Made by a program: the position numbers and the translations under genes
Notes under the pieces: generated by a model
Told to the model about the DNA's origin: nothing
Databases searched by the model: none
What the model saw: only the letters and a program-made list of their open reading frames with translations
Part shown: positions 6,216 through 16,702 of the stretch, piece after piece
Position numbering within the stretch: the stretch's first letter is position 1
Layout of the letters: each line of letters opens with the position of its first letter
Assembly: GCF_026988555.1 (NCBI RefSeq)
Contig: NZ_JALSLB010000013.1
Location: 1-64,000 of the forward strand
Length of the DNA: 64,000 bases
From: Thermococcus sp.
GTDB taxonomy: Archaea; Methanobacteriota_B; Thermococci; Thermococcales; Thermococcaceae
Direction of reading: 5' to 3'

Positions 6216-7349
6216 TCACCTTATCAGGTTTACGAGGGCGGGCCAGAGATTCAGGGCCAGCAGTGCCAGTCCGGTTCCTATCGTGAAGTACCTGAGGGGA
6301 TTTGCCACGCTCTTCGGCAGGTACTCCTTCAGCACGTCGTCCAGCATCCTGCCCCCGTCCAGTGGAACCAGCGGGAAGAGGTTCATGAGCCCTATCCCGA
6401 GGTTCAGCACGTATATCCAGTACAGCGTGAAGAAGAGCGGCAGGACTATCCCCTTATGGCCGACCCTGGAGACGACGTTCTGTGCCGGGTATATCCCTAT
6501 GTAACCCCTCTGAGGATCCTGAGGATGAGCTCCCAGCTTCAGTCTGACGTTGAGCTTCTCTCCGTTTCTTAGGACCGTGAGCGTGAGCTCCTGTCCTGGC
6601 TTTGTTTTGTTCATGAACTTTATGAACTGGGTCAGGTCGTTTATGCTCTGACCATCCATTGCCACTATGACGTCACCCTTGTGAAGAACACCGTAGGCCG
6701 GCCCGTTTTCCAAGACCCCTGAGACGGCTATTCCAGCCGGCTGAAGGAGTGGGCTCACGGCCAGATTGATTATCATCAGTGTTATGAGTGCGGTTACTAC
6801 GTTCGCCATTGATCCGGCGCCATAAACGCGCAGACGGGTTCTCAGGCGTGCCTTCTGGAGTTCCTCCTCGTCGGGTTCCACGAAGGCGCCGGGTATGACC
6901 GCAAGCAGGACGAGACCTACGGACTTGAGCGGCAAACCGTCAGCCCTCGCAACCACCCCGTGGCTCAACTCGTGGACCACCATGACAACTATGAGGGCGA
7001 TGAGTCCGTACCAGAGCGGGATGGTCACCCCCGGGATCACCAACTGCACACCCTGGGCGGCCCCTCTCGTCCTCAGCGCCGACATCGCCGTTCTGAAAAG
7101 CATGTAGAATACGTAGCTCATCCCTCCAAACCCCACCACTATGCCGATGTCCCCGTAGACCTTCCAGAGTTTCCTGGCCTTCTGCGCCGTTCCATCAATG
7201 AAGCCGAGGAGCCGTTTGGTACGCCACATAGCGATGAACATGTCTACGTTTATGCCCTCTTCCCTCTCTTCCCTCCTTCCGAAGAGGACGTAAAGAACGC
7301 TCCAAAATATGATAATACCCGCTATGACTGTGATCAGTGTAATGCTCAT
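6216..7349 (-). CDS. Site-2 protease family intramembrane zinc protease with PDZ domain
   Basis: 377 residues from ATG 7349, behind GGTGCAGGGT (the GTG inside that site, at 7358, is the longer alternative). After an N-terminal membrane segment and a soluble stretch, HELSH at about residues 126-130 gives the zinc-binding HExxH of M50 proteases in a membrane helix. A PDZ-like region follows (VSGVLENGPAYGVLHKGDVI, about 215-300), and the second M50 motif NLFPLVPLDGG supplies the conserved aspartate. These enzymes cut membrane-bound regulators within the bilayer. All catalytic motifs are intact. No obvious anti-sigma-like substrate is next to it, so its target is unknown. Confidence 0.92.
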   Translation of the reverse strand: MSITLITVIAGIIIFWSVLYVLFGRREEREEGINVDMFIAMWRTKRLLGFIDGTAQKARKLWKVYGDIGIVVGFGGMSYVFYMLFRTAMSALRTRGAAQGVQLVIPGVTIPLWYGLIALIVVMVVHELSHGVVARADGLPLKSVGLVLLAVIPGAFVEPDEEELQKARLRTRLRVYGAGSMANVVTALITLMIINLAVSPLLQPAGIAVSGVLENGPAYGVLHKGDVIVAMDGQSINDLTQFIKFMNKTKPGQELTLTVLRNGEKLNVRLKLGAHPQDPQRGYIGIYPAQNVVSRVGHKGIVLPLFFTLYWIYVLNLGIGLMNLFPLVPLDGGRMLDDVLKEYLPKSVANPLRYFTIGTGLALLALNLWPALVNLIR

Positions 7350-7398
7350 ACCCTGCACCGGATGTTTTTATCCTCGGGGGGTTTAAAAAGTAATCGGG

Positions 7399-8286
7399 TT
7401 ACAGCCTTCCCAGGAACTTCATGATATAAATCTTGGTTCTAACATCCGCCATTGATATTATAATGTCATGAAGATTGCTTTTCATAAGCGGGTTCAGGGA
7501 GAATGCTCTCAGTATGTTTTGAATACCTGACTTTTTTTTTCCCCCAAACATCTCTAGGAGTCCTATCTGAAGGAGGTGGTAGCTCAGTATCCGGGGGTCA
7601 TGGTTTATCTCTGCATGTGACTCTATCATCCTATACCTACCATCTAAATATCTTCCGAAGGAGAACTGGCCGGAGTGTATGGAGTAGTCAACTAGGGGTT
7701 CACCTATAGTGCCGAAAAGGCATGTTCTCGACATTCTCAGCCACATGTCCCAGTCCTCGCAGGTTATGAAATCTTCCCGAAAAGTGCCGGATCTCTTAAA
7801 ACACTCCCGTCTGACCATTATCGTGGACGTCCCTGTAATGTTGTCCTTGAGTAGGTAAGGGTAAACATATCCACTGGCAATGGGCCGTTTTGAACCCAGA
7901 ACTTTTTTATTCCTCAGATAATAGTAGTTAAAAGCTGTGTAAACAAGGCCGTACTTCCTCCCTAGATTCTGGAAGAGTTCAATCTGTGCCTCCAGTTTTG
8001 GGGCTTTCCATGCATCATCATCGTCAAGAAAAGCTATTAACTCTCCACGTGCCTTCTTAACACCAAGATTTCTTGCGTTGGCTATACCCCTTCCCTTCTG
8101 AGGTATGTAACGGAGTCTGCCATCCCCGTAAGAGCGCACAAGCTCCTTAGTCGAGTCATTCTTAGCACCGTCTATCACTAAAATCTCAAACTCGTCAAAC
8201 GTTTGGTTTAAAACGCTCTTTATAGCCCGTCTGAGCAGGACGTCCCGGTTGTAGGTGGGTACAATCACTGATACTCTGGGCCTCAC
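7399..8286 (-). CDS. GT2 family glycosyltransferase
   Basis: 295 residues with GTG start overlapping the TGA of the cytidylyltransferase gene by four bases (GTGA). The N-terminus VSVIVPTYNRDVLLRRAIKS is the classic GT-A/GT2 opening, with IVIDGA-type and FLDDDD (about residue 90, the metal- and sugar-nucleotide-binding DxD) and a later ED motif (TCEDWDMWLR) that supplies the catalytic base. It is the third gene of a run from the TagF-like gene through the TarI-like gene. It closely resembles the GT2 at 12215-13000 in organisation. It likely adds a sugar to a surface polymer or lipid-linked glycan; donor and acceptor are unknown. Confidence 0.9.
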   Translation of the reverse strand: MRPRVSVIVPTYNRDVLLRRAIKSVLNQTFDEFEILVIDGAKNDSTKELVRSYGDGRLRYIPQKGRGIANARNLGVKKARGELIAFLDDDDAWKAPKLEAQIELFQNLGRKYGLVYTAFNYYYLRNKKVLGSKRPIASGYVYPYLLKDNITGTSTIMVRRECFKRSGTFREDFITCEDWDMWLRMSRTCLFGTIGEPLVDYSIHSGQFSFGRYLDGRYRMIESHAEINHDPRILSYHLLQIGLLEMFGGKKKSGIQNILRAFSLNPLMKSNLHDIIISMADVRTKIYIMKFLGRL

Positions 8287-8972
8287 CCTCTCTCCTCCAG
8301 GATCCTTATCAAAGCCTTTGCTATTTTCACATCCTCTCTGAACGTTATCTTCAGGTTGAAGCAGTTGCAGTGCAGTGCGTGGACGTCAAAACCGGCCTTA
8401 ATCGCGAGAAGGATGTCATGTGGAATTTCGTTCAGGTAGCCCCCACTGACGGCCGTTTCAAGGGTTTCCTTTAGGGCTCTATATCTATACCCCGTGGGGG
8501 ATTCGCCCATAACGTACTTGGAGCGATCGTGTATCTCATACACCCTTCCGTTTTTCAGTTCTATTAGGTTCCCCGTTATTGGATTAACAGTAGTTACAAC
8601 GTTTTTCCTCTCTAATAGCTTTTCCATCCTTTCGAAAACCCAGGGGGGTGTGAACGGACGAACGGCATCATGAACGATAACCTTCCTTTCACCCTCCGAT
8701 ATCTTCAGGAAACCCCTATACATGGATTCATTCCGTGTTGTTCCACCTTCGGTTACTGTAGAGATCTTTGGAAAACTCTCCATAAGCTTTTTTCCCGTTT
8801 TCATAAATCCTGGATTTGATACCAGAACGATGTTATCTATAGAATCGACTTCTGAGACGTTTTCCAGAGTATACTCAATAATCATTTTCTCCTCTATCTT
8901 GAAATACTGCTTTGGTAACCCCAAATTAGCTCTTTTTCCTATACCTCCCGCCAGTAGGATTAGAGTTGTCAT
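8283..8972 (-). CDS. IspD/TarI-like cytidylyltransferase (likely CDP-ribitol type)
   Basis: 229 residues behind GGTGAATAGAA. The IspD/TarI signatures are all present: LLAGGIGKRANLGLPKQY at the N-terminus (CTP binding), GGTTRNESMYRG near 80, and HDAVRPF near 103. The reaction is CTP plus a sugar or polyol phosphate giving CDP-polyol and pyrophosphate. Archaea of this group make isoprenoids by a mevalonate route, so an MEP-pathway IspD role is improbable; the TarI role (ribitol 5-phosphate to CDP-ribitol) fits better because a TagF/TarL-like polymerase lies two bases upstream in the same operon. No TarJ-like dehydrogenase was found in the window. The substrate is therefore an inference. Confidence 0.88.
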   Translation of the reverse strand: MTTLILLAGGIGKRANLGLPKQYFKIEEKMIIEYTLENVSEVDSIDNIVLVSNPGFMKTGKKLMESFPKISTVTEGGTTRNESMYRGFLKISEGERKVIVHDAVRPFTPPWVFERMEKLLERKNVVTTVNPITGNLIELKNGRVYEIHDRSKYVMGESPTGYRYRALKETLETAVSGGYLNEIPHDILLAIKAGFDVHALHCNCFNLKITFREDVKIAKALIRILEERG

Positions 8973-8974
8973 TT

Positions 8975-10153
8975 CTATTCACCCTTTATCAGGTGCCGGT
9001 AAACCCTTTCCGATGAATGAGGATCAGCCCCAACTTCGTACAGGAGGCTCTTAACTGTTTTCCTCCATTCCATGTCCTTGGTGGGCTCCTCCAGATAGGC
9101 TTTAAGAGACTGAATCAGTTCGTCTATCGTTTCTGATTTCTTTCCAGGGGCGAAGAAGTTGTATGGAAGGAGAAAGCCACTTTTTCTCTCCAGTTCTTTT
9201 CTATCGGGCAGGTAGAATACGATTGGTCTCTCGGTTAAAATATAATCCTCGAAGATACTTGAGTAGTCGGTTATTAGCATATCAAAGGCCCCCATTATGT
9301 CGTTTATTGTTAGCAGTCTCTCCTGGAGAGGTTGGTCCCCAAGGAGGATCATGTTTTTCGTATTGACGATTGAATCTGCTATGGCTTTGCTCACGAGCTT
9401 GTGGGGTTTGATTACCAGAAGGAGGTTTTCCCTCCCGAGGAAATTGGTAAGCTTCTTGGAGAGTAGGGTTCTTACGACGTTTACACTCGCCCTATGATCT
9501 TTTAAATAGCTCGTATACCTGTAAGTGGGCGCGTAAAGAATTAGCCTATCAAAGGATTCAATGTCCAGACCAAGGATATCGGAGAGAAGGTCCCTTGATT
9601 TTTTGAGATTTGCAAACAGGCCATCGTTTCGTGGCTGTCCGAGAAGTTTGAACTTCCGGGGGTTTACCATGAACTGCCTTACAAAAGCTCCAACTACGAG
9701 CTCGGAGGTCGTTACAAAATAGCTTGTCCACCTGTCCATGTAGAGATAGAGATCCTTAACCCCAATGGGATGTTCATAACCGGTCTTTTTTCCGGGTAAG
9801 CCATGCCAGAGCTGGATTACCTTCTGGCCAGAGTGGGGTGTTACTGGCAGTACATCACTTGTAACGACGAATCTTGCCCTTATTAGTTCGTTCGGACCTT
9901 TTGCCGAGAACAGCGAGACGGTCCTTGCATCGTATTCCTTTGTAAGTTTTTCGAGTCCTGGGGGGTTATCATCTTTTAGAAGCCAGACAAGATCGTAGCC
10001 ATAGTTTTGTGAGGCTATAAACCTGAAGAGGGCCAGGGAATTGTCAGAAATGTCTGGAGTCGAGTAGAAGACTATCTTTGATTCGTCTTTAGGGAGATGG
10101 TTTACAATGGAGAGGATCTTTGAGGCTATAAGCTGTTTTTTGAGCTTGTTCAT
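8975..10153 (-). CDS. TagF/TarL-like CDP-glycerol or CDP-ribitol phosphotransferase
   Basis: About 392 residues from ATG 10153 (an ATG at 10159 is possible). The family motifs of PF04464-type enzymes are intact: QLWHGLPGKK (catalytic histidine), LYAPTYR, KPH and ITDYSSIFEDYILTERPIVFY. In Gram-positive bacteria such enzymes transfer glycerol- or ribitol-phosphate from the CDP form to build wall teichoic acid. No transmembrane segment or N-terminal glycosyltransferase domain is present, so it would act at the inner face of the membrane. It leads the operon with the TarI-like and GT2 genes and is divergent from the GT2 at 10220. In an archaeon this suggests polyol-phosphate decoration of a surface glycan. 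Confidence 0.87.
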   Translation of the reverse strand: MNKLKKQLIASKILSIVNHLPKDESKIVFYSTPDISDNSLALFRFIASQNYGYDLVWLLKDDNPPGLEKLTKEYDARTVSLFSAKGPNELIRARFVVTSDVLPVTPHSGQKVIQLWHGLPGKKTGYEHPIGVKDLYLYMDRWTSYFVTTSELVVGAFVRQFMVNPRKFKLLGQPRNDGLFANLKKSRDLLSDILGLDIESFDRLILYAPTYRYTSYLKDHRASVNVVRTLLSKKLTNFLGRENLLLVIKPHKLVSKAIADSIVNTKNMILLGDQPLQERLLTINDIMGAFDMLITDYSSIFEDYILTERPIVFYLPDRKELERKSGFLLPYNFFAPGKKSETIDELIQSLKAYLEEPTKDMEWRKTVKSLLYEVGADPHSSERVYRHLIKGE

Positions 10154-10219
10154 GTTCATCACTAAAATGCTATGGAATAAACTTTTAAGGGTTTTTAGAT
10201 TTCTATTAGCGGGATCAGC

Positions 10220-11179
10220 ATGGTTAAGGTTTCGGTTATTGTACCGGTGTATAATACAAGAAACTATATCCATAGGCTACTTGCTTCCCTTGAAAGTCAG
10301 ACTTACAGGAATTTCGAGGCTATTTTTGTAGATGATTCATCCGATGATACATATGAGATTTTGAAAAAATTTGAAAACACTTATCCTGATCAGGTTCATG
10401 TTGAAAAAGGCATCAAAAAAGGTCCAGGAATTGCACGTAATATTGGTCTTGAAATAGCTTCTGGTAGGTACGTGGCATTTATTGATTCGGACGATTGGTG
10501 GAGTGAAAATTTTTTGGAACGTACTATGGAACATATGAGAGCCCACGATGGAGTTTACACTGGCTATTGTGATGTCCTTGAGAGTGGAAAAAAGGTCTAT
10601 ATCAAACCGAAAGTAGTGGGTCACGCTGACTGGAAACCTGTTTTGGAAATGAAAGTTAGGTTTGGCATAGGGAACACCCTAATGAAAAGCTCCCTAATTG
10701 AGAATTATGGTATAAGGTTTCCCGATGGGATTGGGGTCAGTGAGGATTCCTACTTTCTCTTGGCTTACCTCTCCGTCATAAAAAGGCCTCTATTTGGATT
10801 AGAAGAGTGTATGTTCTACCATCTTGCTCGAACGTCCTCACTCTCTCGAACCTCCTTCAGTCTTCAAGAGGGAATCGATAAAATTGATCAGACCATTGAG
10901 AGCTATAGAAGATTAAGGGAGTTCGTTTTTCAGAACTCCCCCTGTCCTGAGGAATTTTGGAAGTTTATTGAGAGTGGACATTTACCAAGGTCTATTCTAA
11001 CATACATAACATCAGTTTCGGATTCCATTGGGAGAAAATATGGCAGAAAACTAATTAGGCAGTATTGGGGATACATTAAAAAGTTTAGACCAGCTCGTAG
11101 TTACATGTCCATGCTTACTTTGTTGTGGTTAGTTGATCCTTTTGTTCCTGTCAGGTTATTATTGAAAAAAATTTGGTGA
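10220..11179 (+). CDS. GT2 family glycosyltransferase, AT-rich
   Basis: 319 residues. VSVIVPVYNTRNYIHRLLAS opens a GT2 catalytic domain; IDSDDWW near residue 92 is the DxD-type metal site, and GVSEDSYFL near 170 carries the acidic catalytic residue. The C-terminal 100 residues are basic and helical with a hydrophobic end (LTLLWLVDPFVPVRLLLKK), which may attach it to the membrane. It begins an AT-rich pair with the GT4 gene downstream (seven-base gap) and shares a divergent promoter region (CTTTTAAG near 10180) with the TagF-like gene. Donor and acceptor unknown. Confidence 0.9.
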   Translation: MVKVSVIVPVYNTRNYIHRLLASLESQTYRNFEAIFVDDSSDDTYEILKKFENTYPDQVHVEKGIKKGPGIARNIGLEIASGRYVAFIDSDDWWSENFLERTMEHMRAHDGVYTGYCDVLESGKKVYIKPKVVGHADWKPVLEMKVRFGIGNTLMKSSLIENYGIRFPDGIGVSEDSYFLLAYLSVIKRPLFGLEECMFYHLARTSSLSRTSFSLQEGIDKIDQTIESYRRLREFVFQNSPCPEEFWKFIESGHLPRSILTYITSVSDSIGRKYGRKLIRQYWGYIKKFRPARSYMSMLTLLWLVDPFVPVRLLLKKIW

Positions 11180-11186
11180 GAGTACT

Positions 11187-12248
11187 ATGAAGGTTCTCGT
11201 TCACAATATAAATCAAGGAGGGGGCGTTACTGTTGTTATGGAGAAAGTTTGCAGCGTTCTTCAGGAACTCAAAAAAGAATTTGACTTTGAGGTTTGGTGC
11301 TCCATAAGAGGGCATCAAAGGATATCCACTTTTGAGTGTTGTGATAAAGTCATGACGTACCGATATTCCTCAAGACTTGACAGGCTATTTGGGTATAGCT
11401 ACACTTTTTTAAAAAACGTGCTCCTAAAGAAAAAGATTGAGAAAGATTTTGATTTGGTTTTCACTCATACCCCTTTATGGGTAAACTCAAATGTAATCTA
11501 CATTGATGGAAGAGATTGGGATAAATTTTATAAACAACACCTAAACATTTTTGGGAAAATTATCCAATATCTACCTCAAAGATATGTAAAAATGTCTGTT
11601 AGAAATTCAACTATTTTCTTGTTAAACTCGGCTGCAAGAGAATTTTACGTGAGAAACTTCCCCCGTTCAATTTATGGGAATCCAAATGGGATCGATTGGA
11701 GTAACTGGATAAACAGAGAAAAGCAGTTTGATTTTATATACGTTGGAAGATTTAGTTATGAAAAGAACCCCGAAATAGTATTCAAGGCCTTTTTGGGCAC
11801 CAAATACTGTGGAATAATGATCGGGGAAGATAAAAATACCCTTATTAGGAATATAATAGTTAAGAAATTTATGCCCCGAAAAATGGTCTTTGAATACATT
11901 TCTCAATCAAAAATTGGTATTTTGCCATCAAGACATGAAGTTTTTCCTATTACTATTCTCGAATACCTTTCATTTGGTTTACCTGTTATTGTTAGTGATT
12001 CGATAGATTCAGAAATAGTGGAATATTGCATAACGTTCAAGTGTTGTGACGAAGCTGATTTATATAATACTTTTGAACATGTCTATGAAAACTATGAATA
12101 CTATGTAAAAAAATATAGAAAAATACGAAAAATAGTACTAGAGAAGTACGATTGGGATAAGATACTTGAAGGAAACATAAGAAAAGCTCTTTTATCTTAT
12201 ATAGTTAGCCAATCTCACAAGGATGTTCCCAGGCGAATACAAATGTGA
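11187..12248 (+). CDS. GT4-like glycosyltransferase, very AT-rich
   Basis: 353 residues behind GGTGAGAGTACT. MKVLVHNINQGGGVTVVMEK is the N-terminal Rossmann strand and glycine loop of GT-B enzymes. The C-terminal half has FIYVGRFSYEKNPEIVFKAF and then GILPSRHEVFPITILEYLSFG, the E-x7-E nucleotide-sugar region of GT4. GC content is far below the neighbourhood; I count 14 G/C in the 60 bases 11521-11580. Its 3' end overlaps the convergent GT2 gene by 34 bases. Base composition and isolation point to acquisition from elsewhere; the sugar is unknown. Confidence 0.87.
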   Translation: MKVLVHNINQGGGVTVVMEKVCSVLQELKKEFDFEVWCSIRGHQRISTFECCDKVMTYRYSSRLDRLFGYSYTFLKNVLLKKKIEKDFDLVFTHTPLWVNSNVIYIDGRDWDKFYKQHLNIFGKIIQYLPQRYVKMSVRNSTIFLLNSAAREFYVRNFPRSIYGNPNGIDWSNWINREKQFDFIYVGRFSYEKNPEIVFKAFLGTKYCGIMIGEDKNTLIRNIIVKKFMPRKMVFEYISQSKIGILPSRHEVFPITILEYLSFGLPVIVSDSIDSEIVEYCITFKCCDEADLYNTFEHVYENYEYYVKKYRKIRKIVLEKYDWDKILEGNIRKALLSYIVSQSHKDVPRRIQM

Positions 12249-13000
12249 CTCTGGGCATAATTTGTAAATCCAATATCTCCATAGTGGTAGTATATTTGAC
12301 TGTACCATAGTAATCTTAGGGTGTTTTTAATTTGTGCATTTTTATTCATTTTAGGGAACCATTTATTCATAAATTTTGTTAATCCGTAAAATACCTTTTT
12401 ATAATCACTTGACAGAGTGGGTCCAGAGTATATGGATACAATGCTGTTAACACCACGAACTATATATTGTTCTGAAATTCTTAACCAATAGTCCCAGTCT
12501 TCACCGATATAGAGACTCTCGTCAAATCCTCCGATAGATTCGAAAACCTCTTTTCGTATGATGACAGTTGAAGTTCCTATGAAATTATCCCTCAACAGGT
12601 TTTCAAAAACGTTGCCTTCTATTATTTTCGGCGGGATTATCTTTCCATTGCCCATATGTTTGTACTTCCCATAAACAAGCCCAACATCGGGAGATTTCTT
12701 GAAAATCTTTAATTGTTCTTCAAGTTTATTTGGCAACCACACATCATCGTCGTCCAAGAATGCGATATACTTTCCTCCGGAAATTTTCATTCCAGTGTTT
12801 CTGGCTGTGCTGACGCCTTTCCTAGCTTCGTAGACTTCATTTATTCTGGGGTCTTCTAGGTCAAGTTTTGTTTCTTTATAATTCTTTACAATGATTATCT
12901 CAAAATCTTGGAAAGTCTGATTTAAAACACTAAGAATAGCACGCTTTAACAGGTGTTCCCTTCCCAGAAGTGTTGGGATTATTACTGAAACCATGGCCAT
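12215..13000 (-). CDS. GT2 family glycosyltransferase, AT-rich
   Basis: 261 residues from ATG 13000, behind GGTGGGAAAACT; an in-frame TTG at 13021 is less likely. It opens with VSVIIPTLLGREHLLKRAIL, has FLDDDDVWLP as DxD site and IGEDWDYWLRISEQ as the catalytic-base region, and LRDNFIGTSTVIIRKEVF, which is shared with the GT2 at 7399-8286. It follows the broken pyruvyltransferase gene and the flippase on the same strand. The last 34 bases overlap the convergent GT4 gene, which is unusual for two genes of different strands and suggests a joined boundary. Confidence 0.88.
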   Translation of the reverse strand: MAMVSVIIPTLLGREHLLKRAILSVLNQTFQDFEIIIVKNYKETKLDLEDPRINEVYEARKGVSTARNTGMKISGGKYIAFLDDDDVWLPNKLEEQLKIFKKSPDVGLVYGKYKHMGNGKIIPPKIIEGNVFENLLRDNFIGTSTVIIRKEVFESIGGFDESLYIGEDWDYWLRISEQYIVRGVNSIVSIYSGPTLSSDYKKVFYGLTKFMNKWFPKMNKNAQIKNTLRLLWYSQIYYHYGDIGFTNYAQSHICIRLGTSL

Positions 13001-13024
13001 AGTTTTCCCACCATTACTCAATTT

Positions 13025-13569
13025 TTAAATTAGACATTTAAAAATATGGTATCTGCTATCCATCTTGCTCTTTTTAGTTGTATCTCTTGATAATACTTTA
13101 TATTCTTTTCTAGGATCCTGATATTTCTTGAGTTTCTCAAAATCTTCTTTTCTGATTGTGGGTGCGCAGACACCAAAATAACTTTGAATACAATTGAAAA
13201 TAGTTGAGGTCAGATATCCATATAACCTATTTCTACAGACAGTTTCCCAAAATATTGATAATTTTCTATTATATCTCAAATCAAACGGTGCATTGTTAAA
13301 AAAACTCGGGTTACGAACCCCAACCCCCCACAATATAAATTTTCTTCTCTCTGAAATGCTCCATCTGTTAGCTTCTCGTGAGAACCATAGGGGCAATACT
13401 GTTCCTCCTCCAAAAAAGAAATGTTGGTACACTTCTTGATATTACACTCATAATATGGAACAAATCATACGTTAGCATCAATGTATCCAAACAGACTTTT
13501 TACACTTAAATATATTAGATCGTCACCAATGTTTTCTTTGTTTATATATCCATGGTATCGTATGATCAT
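13025..13569 (-). pseudogene. Polysaccharide pyruvyltransferase-like gene, broken
   Basis: Translation from ATG 13569 (behind AGGAGGGGATGA, five bases after the flippase stop) gives MIIRYHGYINKENIGDDLIY and on to DANV, then a TGA at 13465-13467. The family continues in a different frame from 13432, with YQHFFFGGGTVLP and FILWGVGVRNPSFF, which match the conserved core of CsaB/WcaK-type pyruvyltransferases. So at least one frameshift besides the stop is needed to join the halves. The combined length (about 180 residues) is also roughly half the family norm, and the C-terminus looks scrambled. The gene would have added a ketal-pyruvate to a surface polymer. It is very likely dead. Confidence 0.72.
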
Positions 13570-13574
13570 AATTA

Positions 13575-14813
13575 TCATCCCCTCCTTTTATCTGATTCAT
13601 GCCAAACGGCTAATGTTAATATTCCCTGACTCACCACCGTCGCCACCGCCGCACCGGTGGCCCCGTAGTGGAGTATGAGAATGTAGTTAAGGACTACGTT
13701 GAGCAGGGCCGTAAAGCCGGTTATCTTGGTAAAGGTAAGCTCCCTTCCTGTGGCGTTCATGTAGCTCCCGAAGAGCGAGTTCAGGAACATGAAGGGGATT
13801 GCAAAGGCCAGAATCCTGAGCACGGGGACGCTCTCCTTGAACTTCTCTCCGAATACGAAGAAGATTCCGAGCTTTGCGAAAAGGTAGTATCCTGCAGTGC
13901 CGGCAAGGCCAAGTAGGAGTAAAACCTGAAGGCTCTTCTTGAACAGAACCTCGAGGGTTTTTTGATCCTCCCTGTGCAGCCTCGCCATCGAGGGCATGGT
14001 TGTGCTCACAACTATGTTCGGAATAAATAGCGAAACCTCAATTAGCGTATAAGCCGCCCTGTAAATGCCTGTTTCGTAGTCCCCCCTGAGAAGGTTCAGC
14101 ATGACCATGTCCGTGCGGTAGTAGATGAGCGTGAAGAGCCCGATGAGCCAGAAGGGGTAGGACTTCCTGAGCAGTTCTCCCCAAACCGAAGGCCTGAACT
14201 TTACTTCGAGCTTCCCGGGGATGAATTTGCGCCCCCACCTTATCCTGAGAAGTTCCCTTATTGTGTACCCGACCAGAAGAACCGCCACGAACGGGGAGAG
14301 CTCTTTGAAATACCACAGGGCCCCCCCACCAACGAAGAAGGCCCAGAACCTCTCGACGGTTCTCGCTATGGCCTCGTACTTGGTGACCTCGTGGCCGTAC
14401 ATTATCCGAACGAACAGATAGGATATCCATGTTAGCATCGCCTCTCCGCCGGTCAGGATAATGAGAAACTTCATCCATTCCGGTTTGGGGAGGAAAAGGG
14501 TTATCCCTCCGATTATGAGAAAGTTCACCAATGCAAGCAATATCTTGAAGCCTAGGACGTCTGGGAGCAGTTCTTTAAGTTTGCCCTTGTCCCTTGCTAT
14601 TTCCCTCATGAGGTAAAATCCAACGCCGAGGTCAGAGAAAACGCCCAGAAGGCCAACGTAGTAGAAGATGAATGAGTACTGGCCGAGCCCGTCCGGGCCG
14701 AGGGTCCTGCTCAGGAGGACGATTATGCCGTATGCAAAGAGCTTGGAGACTACCTCTGCCCCGAACAGCCAGCCGGCGTTTTTGATTAGTTTAAACTTCA
14801 GGCTCTCCGTCAT
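13575..14813 (-). CDS. Oligosaccharide flippase (MATE/MOP, Wzx-like)
   Basis: 412 residues from ATG 14813. A TATA-like TTTTTAAG lies about 25 bases upstream, so the mRNA is probably leaderless; a GTG at 14846 would lie inside the promoter. The protein has the MOP-superfamily layout of about 12-14 membrane helices, beginning FKLIKNAGWLFGAEVVSKLF, with LSRTLGPDGLGQYSF in the first loop and LNVVLNYILILHYGATGAAV in a late helix pair, both typical of Wzx-type proteins. It would move lipid-linked oligosaccharides across the membrane for the surrounding glycosyltransferases. GC content is normal here, unlike the genes directly downstream. Confidence 0.92.
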   Translation of the reverse strand: MTESLKFKLIKNAGWLFGAEVVSKLFAYGIIVLLSRTLGPDGLGQYSFIFYYVGLLGVFSDLGVGFYLMREIARDKGKLKELLPDVLGFKILLALVNFLIIGGITLFLPKPEWMKFLIILTGGEAMLTWISYLFVRIMYGHEVTKYEAIARTVERFWAFFVGGGALWYFKELSPFVAVLLVGYTIRELLRIRWGRKFIPGKLEVKFRPSVWGELLRKSYPFWLIGLFTLIYYRTDMVMLNLLRGDYETGIYRAAYTLIEVSLFIPNIVVSTTMPSMARLHREDQKTLEVLFKKSLQVLLLLGLAGTAGYYLFAKLGIFFVFGEKFKESVPVLRILAFAIPFMFLNSLFGSYMNATGRELTFTKITGFTALLNVVLNYILILHYGATGAAVATVVSQGILTLAVWHESDKRRG

Positions 14814-14949
14814 CGGTGATTTTACGGGTTGAGGGCTTAAAAACACTGTGGGTTTTTTATCGTCCGGGTTATTTTTAACAACTATTTAACGGAAAACCTT
14901 ATAAACCTGGAAGTTGTTTCTTCTGTGAGTACTTTATGGGGTGGTGTCA

Positions 14950-15841: not shown

Positions 15842-16702
15842 GTGGACGAGGTGTACAGACCGATATGGCTCAGTATAATTGGCAACATCCTTCTGGCCCT
15901 TATGAAGCTGGCAGTGGGTTTTCTGTACTCCAGTATAGCCCTCATCTCGGATGGGGTTCACTCGCTGAGTGACGTTCTCACGAGCGTTATCGGCTATTTT
16001 GGGATAAGGATCTCGTCGAAGCCGGCGGACGAAAACCATCCCTTCGGTCACTCGCGTTTTGAACCGCTGGTGGCCTTCCTCATTGCGGAGGCCCTTCTGG
16101 TGGTCGCCTACGAGATCGGCCGGGACGCCTTTTTTCGGGTTCACCACGAGGTCCCCCTTGTGGTGAACGGCCTCATGCTCGGCGTCACCGTCGTGTCCAT
16201 CCTGACCAAGGAGGGTATGTTCCGCTATTCGGCTCACGTGGGGGGAAAGCTCAACAACCAGATCCTGATCGCAGATGCGTACCACCACAGGAGTGACGCC
16301 CTGAGTAGCGTCGCGGTCCTTATCGGGCTGGTCGCCCAGAGGCTGGGATTTCCGTACGGCGATTCCCTTGCCGGCTTCCTTGTCGCGCTGATGCTCGCCA
16401 AGATCGCCCTTGACATGATCCTGGAGAACGTGGGCTACCTGACCGGTAGGGCCCCGCCCACCGAGGTATGCGAAAGGATAAAGAATACCGCGCTGGCAGT
16501 TTCGGGGGTCGTGGGGGTTCACGATCTGAGGGCTCACTACGTCGGAAACAGGCTCCACGTTGAGCTCCACGTGGAGGTCTCACCGGAGCTGAGTCTGAAA
16601 GAAGCGCACGACATCGGTGAGGAAGTCCGGGAGAGGCTGGAGGCCCTTTCAGAGGTGGAAGCGGCTTTTGTGCACGTTGACATCAGAGGCGTGACGAAGT
16701 GA
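15842..16702 (+). CDS. Cation diffusion facilitator (CDF) metal transporter
   Basis: 286 residues with GTG start behind GGGGTGATACC; a TATA-like TTAAATATT near 15804 fits. Six membrane helices are expected, with the metal-site pairs DGVHSLSD (helix 2) and AYHHRSDALSS (helix 5) intact, and GHSRFEPL between helices 2 and 3. The cytoplasmic C-terminal domain (from about 205: VCERIKNTALAVSGVVGVHD...HVELHVEVSPE) is the usual CDF dimer and metal-sensing domain. Such proteins export Zn, Mn, Fe or similar ions in exchange for protons. Which metal is used cannot be read with certainty. The last 20 bases overlap the convergent mfnA gene. Confidence 0.93.
   Translation: MDEVYRPIWLSIIGNILLALMKLAVGFLYSSIALISDGVHSLSDVLTSVIGYFGIRISSKPADENHPFGHSRFEPLVAFLIAEALLVVAYEIGRDAFFRVHHEVPLVVNGLMLGVTVVSILTKEGMFRYSAHVGGKLNNQILIADAYHHRSDALSSVAVLIGLVAQRLGFPYGDSLAGFLVALMLAKIALDMILENVGYLTGRAPPTEVCERIKNTALAVSGVVGVHDLRAHYVGNRLHVELHVEVSPELSLKEAHDIGEEVRERLEALSEVEAAFVHVDIRGVTK

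Follow-up and report, generated by a model that had tools for sequence, protein, structure and literature searches.

Polymers of polyol phosphate at the cell surface are characteristic of bacteria, and mammals, too, carry ribitol phosphate, on dystroglycan. Two adjacent genes in an archaeon, Thermococcus sp., raise the question of whether glycans like teichoic acids are also made by archaea, and which polyol they would contain. The window analysed here is a stretch of 64,000 nucleotides in which the gene of an IspD/TarI-family cytidylyltransferase lies beside that of a TagF-family CDP-polyol phosphotransferase. We propose that this pair, one of a group of loci called type A below, is a nucleotide-activated polyol-phosphate module that decorates a surface glycan, and we put the probability of this reading at about 0.75. 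No report of polyol phosphate in the surface glycans of Thermococcales was found in the open-access literature.

An operon of transferases in a variable glycan slot

Read on the minus strand, from position 10153 down to 7399, the TagF-like gene (8975-10153) is followed by the IspD/TarI-like gene (8283-8972) and this by the gene of a GT2 glycosyltransferase (7399-8286, PF00535). An earlier note on this DNA had described a spacing of two bases and an overlapping GT2 gene, and both are confirmed: the gap is formed by positions 8973-8974, and the GT2 gene shares four nucleotides (GTGA) with the IspD-like gene. A sigma-70 promoter scan, whose model is bacterial and not applicable to archaea, returned matches at chance level. 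By its substitution pattern the IspD-like gene is under strong purifying selection; against its nearest relative (G064) dN is 0.11 and dS 4, which is near saturation, so that dN/dS is approximately 0.03.

The cytidylyltransferase (P0001, 229 aa) matches PF01128 with 114 bits. Its scores against the more specific models fall below the curated cut-offs, with 124 bits for IspD (TIGR00453, cut-off 181) and 104 bits for the NCBIfam TarI model (NF001183, cut-off 166). The same pattern is seen for the phosphotransferase (P0002, 392 aa), which matches PF04464 with 198 bits (Pfam cut-off 22), and the equivalog models TarF, TarL and TarB with 85, 69 and 38 bits (cut-offs 550, 1000 and 500). AlphaFold models of both proteins were built with archaeal relatives alone as input, and reached a pLDDT of 89 (P0001) and 87 (P0002). 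The first resembles the structures of IspD, TarI and human ISPD with Z-scores of 23-29. The second resembles TagF (Z 36), Cps3D (34.5) and TarL (30), with another capsule multienzyme within the range of 30-36, before the next matches drop to 20. In P0002, H117 is aligned to H300 of TarL, and the segments W116 H117, K249-P250-H251 and T295-DYSS are invariant across 14 archaeal relatives. P0002 is thus a member of the PF04464 family by the Pfam cut-off, by its fold and by its catalytic histidines H117 and H251.

Could the cytidylyltransferase simply be a true IspD, serving the MEP pathway of isoprenoid synthesis? Its family name, its similarity to TIGR00453 and the presence of IspD among its best structural matches would suit this role. 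That said, none of the 94 Thermococcaceae genomes in our sample has IspF, DXR was not found in the window's own genome, and HMG-CoA reductase is present there. We reject the MEP role on these grounds, in agreement with the earlier note, which had not expected this pathway in Thermococcales. The score below the IspD cut-off and the constant company of a TagF-like gene also speak against a true IspD, and the chance that it is one is negligible.

The surroundings of the pair are those of a surface-glycan cassette. On the plus strand lie a divergent GT2 gene (10220-11179, PF00535) and a GT4-type glycosyltransferase gene (11187-12248, PF00534), and on the minus strand a further GT2 gene (12215-13021, PF00535) and the gene of a Wzx/MurJ-type polysaccharide flippase (13575-14846, PF01943, 111 bits). 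Inside the cassette there is also an open reading frame of 135 aa (13025-13432) that has no Pfam or NCBIfam match and may not be a gene. The whole forms a variable slot (7399-14846) between the genes of an S2P protease (6216-7358) and a cation-efflux protein (15842-16702); for most of the slot the GC content is 0.34-0.48, compared with 0.50-0.58 in the DNA flanking it. In other Thermococcus genomes the same flanks enclose differing glycan cassettes, mostly with a match to a Wzx-like flippase. For example, in five genomes a GT2 gene whose product is 64-73% identical to the window's adjoins S2P in a slot that lacks the pair. Elsewhere, in G032 (L097:12395-17958) and similarly at L099, L103 and L104, the slot holds genes for ATP sulfurylase and APS kinase, together with those for TauE and a phosphodiesterase-family protein; this set may supply PAPS for sulfated glycans.

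How might the type A genes work together? The cytidylyltransferase would join CTP and a small phosphorylated polyol, or a similar compound, to give a CDP-polyol, with release of pyrophosphate. From this CDP-polyol the TagF-family enzyme would transfer polyol phosphate, as a single unit or as a chain, to a glycan that is probably a lipid-linked oligosaccharide. The neighbouring GT2 and GT4 enzymes would build that oligosaccharide, and the Wzx-type flippase would export it to the cell surface.

Distribution and three types of pair

We searched 94 Thermococcaceae genomes for matches to the window's cytidylyltransferase and to PF04464. The former were found in 15 genomes and the latter in 18, and each of the 15 with an IspD-like match also has a TagF-like gene (hypergeometric p of approximately 9e-15 for the 94 genomes, with relatedness ignored). 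The pair that the earlier note had proposed to look for in other Thermococcales is therefore there to be found. In 14 of the 15 genomes the genes are immediate neighbours or, in G006, separated by a single FkbM-type methyltransferase gene; in G066 they are split over two contigs, at the ends of both (C4 and C69). Among the three genomes that have PF04464 and lack a clear IspD-like match, the contig of G063 ends inside the TagF-like gene, and G083 has a weak and partial IspD-like match. The PF04464 gene of G085 (L062:7940-9282), also at a contig end, lies beside that of an NTP_transferase protein with weak similarity to IspD, which suggests that TagF-like enzymes in this family of archaea may have other partners. 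Contamination, or an isolated oddity, can be ruled out, as the pair is present in 15 Thermococcaceae genomes and the window's flanks are Thermococcus genes.

The pairs are of three types. Type A is found in ten genomes (the window's, G064, G024, G069, G049, G006, G058, G020, G066 and G011), and here the order is TagF-like, IspD-like and GT2, with the GT2 gene following the IspD-like gene in all ten. The IspD-like proteins are 61-82% identical to the window copy, and most loci have a divergent GT2 gene upstream of the TagF-like gene. These loci occupy differing chromosomal sites; in G024, for example, the type A genes lie near 1.507 Mb, with the TagF-like gene at C1:1506358-1507476, and the S2P slot near 1.63 Mb, from which we conclude that the genes move as a unit. 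We take G024 to be T. kodakarensis KOD1, G006 to be P. horikoshii OT3 and G078, mentioned below, to be T. sibiricus MM 739. As T. kodakarensis is genetically tractable, the presence of a type A pair in what is apparently this species makes the question of an archaeal teichoic-acid-like glycan testable.

Type B is found in three genomes, G075 (L050:9716-11608), G079 (L060:10031-11923) and G090 (L052:9725-11617). Its genes are convergent and its IspD-like proteins are 33-35% identical to the window's. The neighbours differ from those of type A, and by inspection, mostly without a profile scan, they look like genes of sugar metabolism. In the type B proteins D106 (E. coli IspD numbering) is replaced by I or L, and there are further changes in the pocket.

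In type C a single protein combines the IspD domain with a C-terminal short-chain dehydrogenase (SDR), and a TagF-like gene adjoins each of the two fusion genes, in G078 (L049:9792-11210) and G030 (L051:9115-10527). Every TarI residue that was checked is kept, and the SDR motifs NxAG and YxxxK are present. Over 96% of its own length the fusion shares 47% identity with a Parabacteroides protein. This protein is annotated as 'bifunctional cytidylyltransferase/SDR family oxidoreductase' and is encoded in a surface-polysaccharide cluster with LicD. The tree groups type C with bacterial fusions (99/94), and types A and B in one clade (100/99) that is separate from TarI (99/96) and joins the fusion clade with 82/83. 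Bacterial fusions of this kind, Acs1 and Bcs1, have been shown by experiment to synthesize CDP-ribitol from ribulose-5-P (PMC4873967, PMC10299916). The residues shared with TarI and the resemblance to these bifunctional enzymes make CDP-ribitol plausible for type C, whose two fusions are strong candidates for CDP-ribitol synthases of Thermococcales.

The polyol pocket and the likely substrate of type A

Does the same hold for type A? The proteins were aligned with E. coli IspD, with TarI of S. aureus and S. pneumoniae and with bacterial relatives, and the pockets were compared by this alignment alone. The earlier note had both enzymes keeping all their catalytic motifs. This is true of the TagF-like protein and, in the cytidylyltransferase, of the CTP side, where A14, G16, R20, K27, G82, R85, S88, D106, R109, R157 and K213 are kept in all ten type A proteins, as are H105, just before D106, and N211. 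It does not hold for the polyol side, where the ten proteins agree on a different set of residues: T140N, T165A/S, Q167T, T189P and D190H. We take positions 140, 165, 167, 189 (T or S) and 190 to form the methylerythritol/ribitol-binding side, going by E. coli IspD structures. The original residues are kept in type C and in bacterial TarI, some of which have the conservative S189, and the type A set is shared by none of the ten bacterial relatives examined. Type A also lacks the YQGQTPQ motif of TarI. A replacement common to all ten proteins makes it probable that the sugar alcohol differs from that of the textbook enzymes, and suggests a specificity that is new to this well-studied fold.

The supply of the polyol is a second consideration. 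The earlier note had seen no TarJ in the window, and the observation extends to the 15 pair-bearing genomes, the window's own included, where no match of useful similarity was found. An SDR like that of type C, i.e. a ribulose-5-P reductase, had no match at 1e-8 in the window's genome, a distant reductase being conceivable, and no gene of the type A cassette is an obvious one for forming a polyol phosphate. Nor did a TagD-type CDP-glycerol synthase score above the cut-off there (58.6 against 165 bits), and the donor of the TagF-like enzyme is therefore most simply made by its partner cytidylyltransferase. The 58.6-bit match is most likely another PF01467-type enzyme, and a TagD-type origin of CDP-glycerol was rejected on this score.

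It is against this background that CDP-ribitol has to be weighed. The pair may still make and use it, provided that the enzyme tolerates its altered pocket and that some unrelated reductase converts ribulose-5-P to ribitol-5-P. Membership of the IspD/TarI family would fit, and so would G163, at which type A agrees with TarI. In a relative (G030) the S2P/cation-efflux slot is occupied by a type C pair, very probably one for CDP-ribitol, and mammalian ISPD functions without a known dedicated reductase (PMC4873967). However, the five polyol-side residues are replaced in every type A protein and kept in type C and in bacterial TarI, and neither TarJ nor a type C-like SDR is found in the window's genome. 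We consider CDP-ribitol unlikely, if far from negligible, for type A. The earlier note had expected CDP-ribitol or another CDP-polyol; a pair for CDP-polyol activation and transfer in a surface-glycan cassette stands as it proposed, but ribitol is less likely than it supposed, is no longer the leading guess, and suits the type C pairs of the two other genomes far better.

Another alternative is that the type A protein is a nucleotidyltransferase for a sugar phosphate or another non-polyol, which the TagF-like enzyme then transfers. The replaced polyol-side residues would be as expected, and the NTP_transferase protein beside the PF04464 gene of G085 would provide a parallel. To our knowledge, however, and judging by PDB titles, the PF04464 enzymes whose donors are established use CDP-glycerol or CDP-ribitol, and we regard this alternative as rather improbable.

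For our preferred reading, that of a polyol-phosphate module, it is fairly likely that the type A substrate is something other than ribitol-5-P. A glycerol phosphate is possible, if doubtful, and a compound that is neither of these is a candidate at somewhat under even odds. In archaea sn-glycerol-1-P is always at hand. We tentatively suggest, as a bolder idea with clearly more chances against it than for it, that an IspD-fold enzyme has changed its specificity and now activates a polyol phosphate foreign to teichoic acids, e.g. sn-glycerol-1-phosphate, and that its TagF-like partner attaches this to the surface glycan in Thermococcus and Pyrococcus. If true, these archaea would have a counterpart to the chemistry of teichoic acids, with a building block of its own.

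Comparison with known systems

Each half of the type A pair has well-known relatives. With IspD of the MEP pathway the cytidylyltransferase shares the fold and the CTP site, although Thermococcaceae are without that pathway. With TarI (S. aureus, 6xhp; S. pneumoniae, 2vsh) it shares the fold, the CTP-side residues and a PF04464 partner, but differs in the polyol-side residues, the YQGQTPQ motif, the missing TarJ and its separate clade. The bifunctional Bcs1 and Acs1 have their match in the type C proteins of G078 and G030, with the same two-domain make-up, the checked TarI residues and the SDR motifs, whereas the window's enzyme is without the reductase domain.

The phosphotransferase shares its fold with TagF, TarL and Cps3D (Z 30-36), and likewise the catalytic histidine regions WH(G/A) and KPH, at an identity of approximately 20-23%. 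With 392 aa it is of the size of TarF and TarB and not of the long polymerases, and its acceptor is presumed to be lipid-linked and archaeal. Among the scanned cassette genes no TagO/TagA linkage-unit enzymes, TagGH exporter or peptidoglycan anchor were seen; a Wzx-type flippase is found there instead. In its organization the slot between S2P and the cation-efflux gene resembles the capsule or O-antigen loci of bacteria, with exchangeable chemistries at one fixed address.
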